Shown here one piece after another: positions 5,969-41,078 of a stretch of 41,078 nucleotides of DNA. The notes beneath the pieces were generated by a model. The model did not search any database. It had not been told where the DNA came from and saw nothing but the letters and a program-made list of their open reading frames with translations. The translations under genes were made by a program, and so were the position numbers. Numbering within the stretch: position 1 is the stretch's first letter; the number at the start of each line of letters is the position of its first letter. The stretch is taken from IMG/VR virus record IMGVR_UViG_3300025759_000210, positions 1-41,078 of that record, one strand, 5' to 3'. The DNA is from a virus.

Positions 5969-5976
5969 TATATTTG
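5969..5976 (+). promoter_or_regulatory. Putative -7 box (TATATTTG)
   Basis: TATATTTG matches TAnnTTTG exactly, 6 bases after the preceding stop. A start near 5983 would reach the strong terminator at 6025-6048 after about 65 bases, so it may drive a very short RNA or read through into the head operon. No obvious -33 TTG. Confidence 0.45.
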
Positions 5977-6024
5977 TAATCTCTTGTTAGTTTTCAAGGT
6001 GTTTTTGTGAGAGTGTTACATTTT

Positions 6025-6048
6025 AGAGGGTTTGCGCCCTCTTTTTTT
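6025..6048 (+). terminator. Rho-independent terminator
   Basis: AGAGGG-TTTGCG-CCCTCT stem-loop followed by seven Ts. It ends the tape-measure-side operon before the head genes. Confidence 0.85.
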
Positions 6049-6097: not shown

Positions 6098-7144
6098 ATG
6101 AATTGGTACACAATAGAAAATAGTATTGAGAACAAGCTACAAATTTCCATTGATGAGGAGATTGGTAGTTATGGTATTTCTGCTAAGTCTTTTATTGAAG
6201 AGGTACAAAGTTCTAACTCAAGAAAGGTAGAGTTATCTATTAATAGTTACGGAGGATCAGTATTTGATGCTTTAGCTATTTACGACTTTCTAAAAAACTC
6301 AAAGTATGATGTTTCAGTTAAAATTGAGGGCGTTGCTGCTTCTGCTGCTACTATTATCGCTTTAGCTGGAAAAGAAAAGCCTAAAATGACGGCTAACAGT
6401 TTCTTTATGATTCATAACGCATGGATGCCAGTAGTATCAATGGAGGGTATGGATTCTAATGATATTAGAGAATATACTAAGGAGTTAGAAAGTCAAGCGG
6501 ATTTAATGGATAAGATTAATGATAAACTAGCTAAGATTTATTCTAGTGTTACTGGTTTAAAAGTTGATTCTATTAAATCTATGATGGATAAAGATACTTG
6601 GATGGATGCTGATGAGGCTTTTGAGTTAGGTTTTGTTGCTGAGGTGTTAGGTGCTGTTAAAGTTGCTGCTTACGCTCAACCTAAAGACTTAGAGAAAAAG
6701 GGATATAAAAATATTCCATCTAATTACGTAAATCAATTAAATAGTTTAGATATGTCTGAAACAAAAAAGGAAACTCTTTTAGAAGAGTTAAAAGCTTGGG
6801 TTTCTGAAACTTTCTCAAATAAAAAAGAAGAAGTGAAAGAAGAGCCTAAGGCTGAAATCAATGCTGAGGAATTAAAAGCTGAATTAATGGCTGAAATTTC
6901 TGCAAGTGTTGAAGCGGATAAAGAAGCTTTAAAAGCTGAATTAGCTGCTAAAGAGGCAGAGTTACAAGCTAAGGCTGAAGAATTTGAAGCTAAAGCTAAA
7001 GAGCTTGAAAAAGCTAACGCAAAAAGAGAAGAAGCTCCTGCTAGAGAAGATGAAGAAGGTGTTAAATCAACTCCTGAAATCAAAGACGAGTTAGGTGCTA
7101 TGATTAAGAATGTTTGGAAAAAATCAGGATTTAAAATTAACTAA
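6098..7144 (+). CDS. ClpP-type prohead protease with C-terminal scaffold-like region
   Basis: A 348-residue protein. The N-terminal 190 residues are an S14/ClpP-like protease: oxyanion region INSYGGSVFDALAIY, catalytic Ser82 in GVAASAAT, His106 in FMIHNAW, and a likely Asp166 just before TWMDADEAFELGF. Residues about 220-330 are Ala/Glu/Lys-rich coiled coil, resembling a scaffolding domain. Such fusions process the head shell and guide its assembly. The major capsid gene follows after 12 bases. A shortened scaffold could also be made from an internal start such as the Met at about residue 218, which I cannot confirm. Confidence 0.9.
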   Translation: MNWYTIENSIENKLQISIDEEIGSYGISAKSFIEEVQSSNSRKVELSINSYGGSVFDALAIYDFLKNSKYDVSVKIEGVAASAATIIALAGKEKPKMTANSFFMIHNAWMPVVSMEGMDSNDIREYTKELESQADLMDKINDKLAKIYSSVTGLKVDSIKSMMDKDTWMDADEAFELGFVAEVLGAVKVAAYAQPKDLEKKGYKNIPSNYVNQLNSLDMSETKKETLLEELKAWVSETFSNKKEEVKEEPKAEINAEELKAELMAEISASVEADKEALKAELAAKEAELQAKAEEFEAKAKELEKANAKREEAPAREDEEGVKSTPEIKDELGAMIKNVWKKSGFKIN

Positions 7145-9457: not shown

Positions 9458-9505
9458 ACGTTACATAACACGTAGTAAAAACAACTACGCAGATTTTTAC
9501 TTCTA
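9458..9505. repeat. 48-base direct repeat, copy 1 (attC-like hairpin)
   Basis: Matches 11091-11138 at 46 of 48 bases, with the 41 bases 9465-9505 exact. It can fold as AGTAAAAA paired with TTTTTACT, or as CGTAGT paired with ACTACG. An ACATAAC box sits at 9463-9469. On the minus strand it forms the 5' leader of the gene ending at 9451. Confidence 0.85.
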
Positions 9506-11090: not shown

Positions 11091-11138
11091 ACGTTTTATA
11101 ACACGTAGTAAAAACAACTACGCAGATTTTTACTTCTA
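11091..11138. repeat. 48-base direct repeat, copy 2 (attC-like hairpin)
   Basis: 46 of 48 bases match 9458-9505. Boxes TTATAAC (11096-11102) and GTTGTAT (11145-11151) flank the hairpin. On the minus strand this is the 5' leader of the 10725-11084 gene and marks the edge of the minus-strand island. Confidence 0.85.
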
Positions 11139-24532: not shown

Positions 24533-25287
24533 TGGAGGGCTGGATAAGTTTACATAGAAAATTACAATACAATTGGATGTGGACAGAAAAAAGAGAATTT
24601 TCAAAAGCTGAAGCATGGATCGATATACTTCTTCAAGTCAACCATAAAGATGGTCAAGTTATAATAAAAAATAAACTATATGAAGTCAAAAGAGGAGATA
24701 GTTTAAACAGTCTTGAAACGTGGGCAAAAAGATGGAGATGGACTAGAAATAGAGTAAAAAGATTTTTAGAACTTTTGAAAAATGATGGCATGATACGTTT
24801 TGAATGTGACTCAAAAACGACCCACTTAACTGTTTGTAATTATGACAGTTACCAAAGTGAGCGTACATTAAACGTACATCAAATGGACATCAAACGTACA
24901 TCAAACGTACATCAAACGTACACAAACAATAATGATAATAATGATAATAATGATAATAAATTAAAAATAGAAGCTTCGCAAATTGGAAAATTCAAATCTG
25001 ATTTAATGAGTGAGGTACAGCAAACTAATATAATTCAGAAAGCTAAATTTAAAGTTGAAGAAAGAGGTGGCTTATGGGCTTGTGATTATAATTTTAATCC
25101 TTATTCTCAGTTGACTAAAAAATATAATTCATTTCAATTTATTTGTAAAAGGTTTAACTGGAAGTTTAATGATGTTAATCACATGAAAAATAGTTTCTTT
25201 AATTTTGTTGTTAACTATTGGGAGTTTAACACAGAAACAATAGAGTCTAAAATAAAACAACAATTTAAAAATAAGTACGCTAGATGA
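24532..25287 (+). CDS. Replication initiator, winged-helix N-terminus
   Basis: A 251-residue protein. The N-terminal 100 residues (GWISLHRKLQYNWMWTEKR, SLETWAKRWRWTRNRVKRFL) match phage replisome-organizer winged-helix domains. A linker encoded by iterons and an Asn/Asp repeat (about residues 112-143) separates this from a C-terminal helical part that could recruit the helicase. The gene layout (initiator, origin inside it, then helicase gene) parallels lambda O and P. Confidence 0.75.
   Translation: MEGWISLHRKLQYNWMWTEKREFSKAEAWIDILLQVNHKDGQVIIKNKLYEVKRGDSLNSLETWAKRWRWTRNRVKRFLELLKNDGMIRFECDSKTTHLTVCNYDSYQSERTLNVHQMDIKRTSNVHQTYTNNNDNNDNNDNKLKIEASQIGKFKSDLMSEVQQTNIIQKAKFKVEERGGLWACDYNFNPYSQLTKKYNSFQFICKRFNWKFNDVNHMKNSFFNFVVNYWEFNTETIESKIKQQFKNKYAR
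24859..24957. other. Putative phage origin: six 11-bp iterons plus AT-rich repeats
   Basis: Six tandem copies of an 11-base unit, consensus AAACGTACATC, are centred on CGTACAT cores at 24862, 24873, 24884 (degenerate, TGGACAT), 24895, 24906 and 24917. They are followed by three copies of AATGATAAT (24931-24957), a low-melting tract. Eleven is not a multiple of three, so the repeats are kept at DNA rather than protein level. This matches the lambda-type origin inside the initiator gene. Confidence 0.75.
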
Positions 25288-35483: not shown

Positions 35484-35492
35484 TAATTTTAT

Positions 35493-35500
35493 TATATTTG
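35493..35500 (+). promoter_or_regulatory. Putative -7 box (TATATTTG) before structured RNA
   Basis: Exact TATATTTG, 9 bases after the preceding stop. It would start transcription near 35505-35508, at the first hairpin of the structured RNA. Confidence 0.5.
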
Positions 35501-35503
35501 CAC

Positions 35504-35587
35504 TTGAGTGTGATGGCTCAATTAAGATACTTTTATAAACTCCCTTAGATTGACGTATCCATCACTACTGATTTCTAAGGGTTTTTT
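35504..35587 (+). ncRNA. Putative small structured RNA with kissing loops, ending in a terminator
   Basis: Hairpin 1 is TTGAG (35504-35508) with CTCAA (35517-35521), loop TGTGATGG. Hairpin 2 is CCCTTAGA (35542-35549) with TCTAAGGG (35574-35581), followed by TTTTTT (35582-35587). The hairpin 2 loop holds CCATCAC (35559-35565), perfectly complementary to GTGATGG (35510-35516) in the loop of hairpin 1. A -7 box precedes it and the HNH gene follows. It could be a free small RNA of about 80 bases or a leader controlling the HNH gene. I recognise no named RNA family. Confidence 0.5.
35542..35587 (+). terminator. Terminator hairpin of the structured RNA
   Basis: Perfect 8-bp stem CCCTTAGA/TCTAAGGG, 24-base loop, then six Ts. 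It lies 5 bases before the HNH gene ATG, so it may also regulate that gene. Confidence 0.65.
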
Positions 35588-35592
35588 AATTT

Positions 35593-36159
35593 ATGAAAAC
35601 TTGTAAAATTGATGGGTGTGATGTTAAATTTTACGCAAAAGGATTATGTGAAAAACATTATGCTAGATTAAGAAGAATTGGCTCTTTAGATTTAATAGGT
35701 AAGGATTATGAGAAACACGATTATGTTGGAACTTCAGAATATAACACTTGGTCAAATATGAGGAGAAGGTGTAATAATGTTAATGATAAATATTACAAAA
35801 ATTACGGAGGTAGAGGTATTAGTGTTTGCGATGAATGGAATAATTCTTTTTTAAGATTTATAGAATATATGGGTAATAAGCCTAATCCTAATTATTCTAT
35901 TGACAGGATAGATAATAATAAGGGTTATTATAAAGAGAATTGTAGATGGGCTGATAGAACTACTCAAAACAACAATCAAAGAGTTAGGAAAGATAATAAG
36001 AGTGGCGTTAAGGGTGTTTTTTATGATAACGCAAGAAAAGTTTGGACTTCGGTTTTATATAAAAACAAAAAAAGAGTTCATATTATGAATCATAAAACTA
36101 AAGAAGAAGCAATTAAATATAGATTAAAAGCAGAATTGGAATATAATAGAAAATTTTAA
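35593..36159 (+). CDS. HNH homing-type endonuclease with AP2-like C-terminus
   Basis: A 188-residue protein. It has an N-terminal zinc-finger-like start (CKIDGCDVKFYAKGLCEKHY), then YNTWSNMRRRCNNVNDKYYK, GGRGISVCDEW, and SIDRIDNNKGYYKENCRWAD, the HNH fold of phage homing enzymes. The last 45 residues (GVKGVFYDNARKVWTSVLYK) resemble an AP2 DNA-binding domain. It is free-standing; the neighbours are not visibly split. A mobile gene inserted in the late operon. Confidence 0.85.
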   Translation: MKTCKIDGCDVKFYAKGLCEKHYARLRRIGSLDLIGKDYEKHDYVGTSEYNTWSNMRRRCNNVNDKYYKNYGGRGISVCDEWNNSFLRFIEYMGNKPNPNYSIDRIDNNKGYYKENCRWADRTTQNNNQRVRKDNKSGVKGVFYDNARKVWTSVLYKNKKRVHIMNHKTKEEAIKYRLKAELEYNRKF

Positions 36160-40653: not shown

Positions 40654-41078
40654 ATGAGGTAATTATTAGGATTCTCGACAGTAGTAATTCTGTTTTAGGC
40701 TCTTTAGATTTAAAAAGTTTTAATGATTTCCCTTTGGTTATTACTAAGGGTATTGTAAACCTTGATAATTTAAAAGCCAGAACTGGGAGTTACTCTAAGA
40801 GTTTTAAAGTACCTAACACTAAGAACAATTCTAAGCTGTTAAATAGTTTAGATGATATAAACAGCCGTAAGGATTATAATAGTGCTTTAAACCGTAAGGA
40901 GTGCGTTATTATAGTTAATGGAACGATAATAGATAAGGGTTTTTTACAAGTAAGTAAAGTTTATCAAGGTTTTGAGTTAGATAGCTTTGAGTTAGTTTTC
41001 TTTGGTAATAATATTGATTGGGTTAAACAAGCTGCTCAAAAAAAGCTTCAAGATATTAGCTGGCGTAATAATTCACAA
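40650..41078 (+). CDS. Tail/baseplate structural protein, N-terminal 143 residues
   Basis: The ATG at 40650 overlaps the previous stop (ATGA). The frame is open to the edge of the window (143 codons) and continues at base 1, since the ends overlap. Starts MNEVIIRILDSSNSVLGSLD. It joins the 664-residue continuation at 1-1997 for a product of about 753 residues. Confidence 0.75.
   Translation, partial: MNEVIIRILDSSNSVLGSLDLKSFNDFPLVITKGIVNLDNLKARTGSYSKSFKVPNTKNNSKLLNSLDDINSRKDYNSALNRKECVIIVNGTIIDKGFLQVSKVYQGFELDSFELVFFGNNIDWVKQAAQKKLQDISWRNNSQ
40915..41078. repeat. Terminal overlap, right copy (pairs with 1-164)
   Basis: See the left copy. In-frame differences change Thr/Ser, Ile/Val and Leu/Val and are otherwise silent, so both versions look functional. 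Confidence 0.9.

Follow-up and report, generated by a model that had tools for sequence, protein, structure and literature searches.

A loop-paired RNA leader precedes HNH endonuclease genes in a putative mobile cassette of related phages

Free-standing HNH genes rank with the most common mobile genes of phages, and how they are prevented from damaging their carriers is known mainly from relatives of T4. Phage homing endonucleases are controlled by leader hairpins and terminators, with the mobE terminator stopping ∼30% of transcripts (PMC2988022). In the T4-type leaders (I-TevI, mobE, segB and seg43), RNA structure between the promoter and the start codon limits expression, either as single hairpins over the Shine–Dalgarno site or as a terminator inside the coding region (PMC2988022). 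Many T4 cassettes use neighboring promoters. In Bacteroidota, structure close to the start codon tunes translation, which proceeds without Shine–Dalgarno sites (PMC6847099). Structured RNAs and terminators also accompany protein genes in other systems. Type III toxin–antitoxin systems (ToxIN, CptIN) combine one promoter, a pseudoknotted RNA, an intrinsic terminator and a downstream protein gene (PMC5086642); the HEARO or omega RNA of IscB-type nucleases (RF02033) lies directly upstream of a mobile HNH-domain nuclease gene (PMC9755519); and premature-terminator leaders, or "mobile attenuators," place a 5′ terminator before a gene on a mobile element (Naville and Gautheret 2010, PMC2965389).

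The RNA analyzed here lies in a stretch of viral DNA of 41,078 nucleotides (IMG/VR record IMGVR_UViG_3300025759_000210), hereafter the window. The window phage is of flavobacterial type, and among the matches listed its closest terminases include those of Croceibacter, Chryseobacterium and Cellulophaga phages. The same sequence (AAGTTTATCAAGGTTTTGAGTTAGATAGCTTTGAGTT...) stands near both ends of the window, at ∼34 to 92 and ∼40948 to 41006, as a direct terminal repeat, and the contig probably represents a whole genome, either circular or permuted. The window also holds an identical 29-nt stretch, CGTAGTAAAAACAACTACGCAGATTTTTA, twice on the plus strand (9471 to 9489 and 11104 to 11122) and a short tandem repeat with an 11-nt unit (TACGTTTGATG, minus strand) at 24885 to 24925, within a 251-aa gene.

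A sequence-only reading had described positions 35493 to 35587 as a promoter-to-terminator unit encoding a kissing-loop small RNA, and direct inspection confirmed its TATATTTG box, two hairpins and six Ts. That reading placed two complementary 7-mers within the hairpin loops; their pairing held, but the last G of GTGATGG belongs to the stem. The unit is indeed unexplained by coding sequence, as had been claimed, with no open reading frame of at least 40 aa across 35484 to 35592. The features of the locus are the following.

35493..35500, plus strand: Bacteroidota-type −7 promoter element TATATTTG, read directly from the sequence (consensus TANNTTTG)
35505, plus strand: predicted transcription start, placed 5 nt past the G of the −7 box (PMC6847099)
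35505..35520, plus strand: 5′-terminal hairpin 1, UGAGU-[GUGAUG]-GCUCA (TGAGT-GTGATG-GCTCA in DNA), from RNAfold and two-sided changes in relatives
35510..35516, plus strand: loop-1 7-mer GTGATGG, the 5′ side of the loop–loop helix, with 6 nt in the loop
35526..35530, plus strand: GATAC, complement (by sequence) of GTATC at 35555 to 35559 beside the loop-2 7-mer
35542..35549, plus strand: 5′ arm of the terminator hairpin (hairpin 2), CCCTTAGA, from RNAfold
35559..35565, plus strand: loop-2 7-mer CCATCAC, the 3′ side of the loop–loop helix, from the sequence
35574..35581, plus strand: 3′ arm of the terminator hairpin, TCTAAGGG, from RNAfold
35582..35587, plus strand: T6 tract in the sequence, predicted 3′ end of an RNA of ∼83 nt
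35593..36159, plus strand: HNH endonuclease gene, 188 aa (PHROG 374 HNH endonuclease, E 4e-53)
about 35493..36158, plus strand: putative mobile cassette of promoter, RNA and HNH gene, all three absent together in locus L002

The Bacteroidota −7 element has its G at −5 (PMC6847099). Exact copies of TATATTTG also occur in intergenic gaps of the window at 5969, 15261, 18475, 30321, 33206 and 34116, and no clear −33 element was found at the copy preceding the RNA. RNAfold gives exactly hairpins 1 and 2, with an unremarkable stability (z of −1.8). The linker between the hairpins is A+U-rich, and the 24-nt loop of hairpin 2 contains CCATCAC, so that the two loops are able to form 6 to 7 bp. Pairing of GATAC with GTATC could lengthen this helix; in L262, one of the relatives described below, the corresponding extension is contiguous (GTGGTAGATAC). 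The T6 tract ends 5 nt upstream of the HNH ATG (35593). The terminator 3′ arm includes an AAGGG 11 nt upstream of that ATG, in a group of bacteria that makes no use of Shine–Dalgarno sites (PMC6847099). The encoded protein has a zinc-knuckle-like N-terminal segment and an AP2-like C-terminal segment, the AP2 match being subthreshold. Elsewhere in the window, at 5969 to 6048, a strong terminator (AGAGGGTTTGCGCCCTCT T7) lies ∼50 nt downstream of a second TATATTTG box and upstream of a head protease-like gene at 6098; the fold of this promoter-to-terminator unit shows no loop–loop pairing.

The interleaved-helix score of the window leader had a P value of 0.001 in 2,000 dinucleotide shuffles. A strict layout, defined as a hairpin at +1, a terminator and a 6-nt loop–loop match, arose in 4, 18, 2 and 57 of 20,000 shuffles of the window leader and its relatives L262, L017 and L091, respectively. 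Such shuffle P values are tests at one given place. Across 1.46 Mb of phage DNA, scores of −26 or better occurred at 18 places in shuffled and 15 in real sequence, a chance rate for comparable patterns of ∼1 per 80 kb. Since ∼0.5 would thus be expected per 41 kb, the window pattern alone is suggestive but no proof. Similarly, a whole-locus scan for a terminator with loop pairing found 33 real against 45 shuffled places and so did not rise above shuffles overall, and all five of its top places lie upstream of HNH genes. Among 9,180 promoter-like 8-mers in all loci compared, 14 give the layout; four of these are the HNH leaders of the window, L262, L017 and L091, and the remainder look like A+T-rich chance matches. 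The significance of the pattern comes from its conservation in relatives.

We gathered remote homologs of the window HNH protein and inspected the DNA upstream of their start codons. Three further HNH genes (L262, L017 and L091), at other positions in phages related to that of the window, are preceded by the same unit: a TATATT box, a 5′-terminal hairpin, a terminator hairpin, a U-rich tract and the HNH start codon. One phage holds both L017 and L262, and L091 comes from a close relative. The promoter box is the same as that of the window, or nearly so, and in the same place, and hairpin 1 starts exactly at the predicted +1 in the window, L262 and L091 and 1 base later in L017. Loop 1, GUGAUG in the window, reads GUGGUA, CGUGAGAAA and GUGAGA in L262, L017 and L091, and its partner, CAUCAC in the window, reads UACCAC, UCUCAC and UCUCAC. 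The letters of the terminator stem differ wholly between the window and the three relatives, and the U-tracts of L017 and L091 are less perfect.

Compensatory changes in the loops and stems of relatives had been named beforehand as a test of the structure, and they are present: when the elements of the four leaders (close family, n = 4) were matched according to role rather than sequence, two-sided changes were evident in 16 of 20 pairs. An alignment by sequence alone misplaces hairpin 1. When partners were swapped between sequences, the paired fraction of the terminator stem fell from 100% to 41% and that of hairpin 1 from 95% to 35%. The loop–loop helix lost less, going from 96% to 77%, because 3 of its 7 pairs never vary. 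Two further matches to the L017/L091 loop from a pattern scan, L265 and L268, both lie in coding DNA and were rejected. Giving up hairpin 1 would allow a longer H-type pseudoknot of 10 to 13 bp in L262, L017 and L091, where either this or the kissing loops may form. The leaders revealed no second, mutually exclusive antiterminator. As the copies in the relatives differ in their letters yet keep their pairing, this is almost certainly a real, conserved RNA structure.

The unit also appears to move with its gene. At the site corresponding to that of the window, L002 has no −7 box, no RNA and no HNH gene, and its flanks match the window at 84% (the 71-aa gene) and 91% (the next gene) DNA identity. 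Conversely, the homologous places in the window are empty where L262, L017 and L091 carry cassettes, giving insertions at four different places. The L017 cassette runs opposite to the neighboring phage genes, so its HNH gene would need the cassette's own promoter, which lies upstream of the terminator. In L262 (1300 to 2250, minus strand), the HNH cassette stands behind a RusA-like gene, and a recoded duplicate of the 3′ end of that gene (EIHAKKHLDKENPRVEFHIIPIE) remains downstream of the HNH gene; this remnant is likely a typical trace of homing and points to the likely target. Together, the empty L002 site, the empty places in the window, the L017 orientation and the L262 scar suggest that promoter, RNA and HNH gene travel together as one mobile cassette.

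Consistent with the earlier statement that no named family has this plan, Rfam gave no match to the window or its relatives at curated or loose thresholds, and the window RNA belongs to no family catalogued there. The loose hits, to eukaryotic and archaeal snoRNAs and a frameshift element, were all far below cut-off, and a snoRNA reading was set aside, the box-C-like GUGAUG not being kept in L017 or L091. A group I intron carrying the HNH gene was likewise rejected: Rfam finds none in the window or relatives, and the cassettes lie between intact genes. A DNA similarity search in phages returned nothing beyond chance. In 395 Bacteroidota genomes HNH homologs were few and the RNA was seen upstream of none; annotated phage HNH relatives lie mostly in operons or group I introns, and this RNA was found in none of them.

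Analogous leaders, without hairpin 1, precede HNH genes in more distant or unrelated phages. In L018, L048 and L211, the HNH start codon is closely preceded by a long terminator-like hairpin whose loop pairs with a 5′ segment (P = 0.0005 each), and the analogous leaders of L055 and L081 are weaker (P = 0.01 to 0.03). Among genes with noncoding upstream DNA, the pseudoknot test was passed by 8 of 31 HNH genes, some of them (L008, L042 and L124) of another type, and by 5 of 113 other genes, a count that includes the window's own HNH leader (L001). The recurrence of this plan before HNH genes in the unrelated phages L018, L048, L211 and L055/L081 suggests that such leaders may have arisen repeatedly. 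The leaders of L018 (3675 to 3778), L048 (3900 to 3991) and L211 (1903 to 2000) have sigma-70–like promoters and unrelated sequences. L018 has a similar pseudoknot-plus-terminator leader at 1830 to 1948, before a non-HNH gene of 108 aa, in the same phage as the HNH copy. L081 (3670 to 3796, identical in L214) and L055 (3065 to 3183) have a larger structured HNH leader with a terminator, and paired changes distinguish them (CAT/ATG versus CAC/GTG). In this leader GCTGGGGAGCAA stands both at the 5′ end and immediately ahead of the HNH ATG, and the loop CTCCCC could pair with either copy. Perfect hairpins that would cover the HNH ribosome binding site, resembling the T4 type, were observed in L009 (2570 to 2626), L053 (3900 to 3944) and L281 (555 to 602).

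We favor, with a probability of roughly 0.58, the reading that the RNA is a self-contained, cis-acting leader of a mobile homing-endonuclease cassette that restrains the HNH gene. Transcription would start at the −7 box and mostly stop at the T-run, yielding a stable RNA of ∼83 nt sealed at both ends, and the HNH protein would be made only from read-through transcripts, keeping the DNA-cutting enzyme low. Such an arrangement would agree with the recognized need to hold homing endonucleases in check and with the partial terminator of mobE (PMC2988022). The HNH gene seems to need such read-through because the sole promoter of the unit precedes the terminator and L017 has no neighbor in the same direction. 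The loop–loop contact would lock the fold of the leader and tune the frequency of terminator formation or access to the start codon; its candidate roles are terminator timing, hiding of the start region, stability and protein binding. In sum, judging from the sequence comparisons, the most likely role of the RNA is that of a brake on the gene for the cutting enzyme. The sequence-only reading had proposed a compact regulatory RNA. A loop-paired RNA with a terminator is what we find, not as a free-standing intergenic sRNA gene but as the 5′ part of a mobile cassette. Given this position, and an HNH gene reached apparently only by read-through, the short RNA is more likely the terminated product of a cis-acting leader or attenuator than a trans-acting RNA.

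Other readings were weighed against the cis-acting leader. The short RNA could itself be the main product, a stable trans-acting sRNA directed at phage or host messages with the HNH gene as passenger, and the hairpin at +1, the terminator hairpin and the loop contact are how a stable free sRNA would be expected to look. However, the pairing parts are those that vary most, and L262 and L017, within one phage, have different loops, so each loop would pair with its own partner rather than with a shared target; moreover, copies were found solely before HNH genes and complementarity to the phage genome was no more than chance, which leaves this reading unlikely. Less probable still is a pseudoknot-like RNA that binds the HNH protein to hold it back or to help it, in the way that type III antitoxin RNAs act on their ribonucleases. 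Its appeal lies in a gene order (promoter, structured RNA, terminator, protein gene) like that of type III systems (PMC5086642) and in the joint movement of RNA and HNH gene, but tandem repeats are absent, no RNA of this sort accompanies most relatives within the HNH family, and the protein is a DNA endonuclease of the homing type rather than a ribonuclease like ToxN, with no PADLOC match. It is distinctly doubtful that the terminator serves to overproduce an RNP partner that tunes HNH cutting, which would be a non-guide system unlike omega RNA or type III.

Translation-coupled control, in which the invariant loop-1 GTG (ATG in the window) starts a leader peptide and ribosomes prevent the terminator, appears very unlikely. 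Short frames, read by eye, do run from the loop GTG or ATG in all four leaders, and the stop touches the terminator stem in the window (codons 35513 to 35548, stop within the 5′ arm) and in L091, but their lengths are as expected by chance in A+T-rich DNA, the L262 stop lies well upstream of the stem and no peptide is conserved. That the pattern is fortuitous loop complementarity on a plain insulating terminator is scarcely credible: similar scores do arise about once per 80 kb, but four HNH leaders share the pattern, with two-sided changes between them. We regard an omega-RNA–like guide or cofactor for RNA-directed DNA cutting as the least probable reading. The RNA immediately precedes an HNH nuclease gene, an arrangement shared with HEARO/IscB (PMC9755519), but there is no HEARO match, the proteins are of 144 to 188 aa with HNH (and an AP2-like part) and no RuvC, and the best match of each of the four RNAs to its empty target site spans 8 to 9 nt, which equals background.

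As a cis-acting leader, the RNA would carry its control within the mobile unit, allowing the cassette to land at new sites in either orientation. It would also give Bacteroidota phages an RNA family found by conservation of base pairs, not of letters, and it makes exact predictions for a small RNA, with a 5′ end at 35505 and a 3′ end at 35587.

Among known systems, the likeness to type III toxin–antitoxin loci lies in the joining of promoter, RNA, terminator and protein gene in one unit. On inspection the leaders are single units rather than tandem RNA repeats, the protein is an HNH endonuclease by PHROGs rather than a ToxN/CptN/TenpN-type endoribonuclease, and in the window RNA the terminator itself takes part in the pairing. 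HEARO likewise has a structured RNA just ahead of a mobile HNH-domain gene; the window RNA differs in being ∼83 nt, with no RF02033 match, no RuvC and no guide-like match at the insertion site. As in the T4-type leaders, a structured RNA lies between promoter and endonuclease start codon, but the window cassette has its own promoter, and a 5′-terminal hairpin kissing a terminator loop is not described in PMC2988022. The window RNA shares a 5′ terminator on a mobile element with the mobile attenuators, from which it is set apart by the contact of its 5′-terminal hairpin with the terminator loop, a feature specific to the cassette and kept by two-sided changes. Control of homing endonucleases by RNA structure is itself already known, and this leader would be a new kind of example within it.
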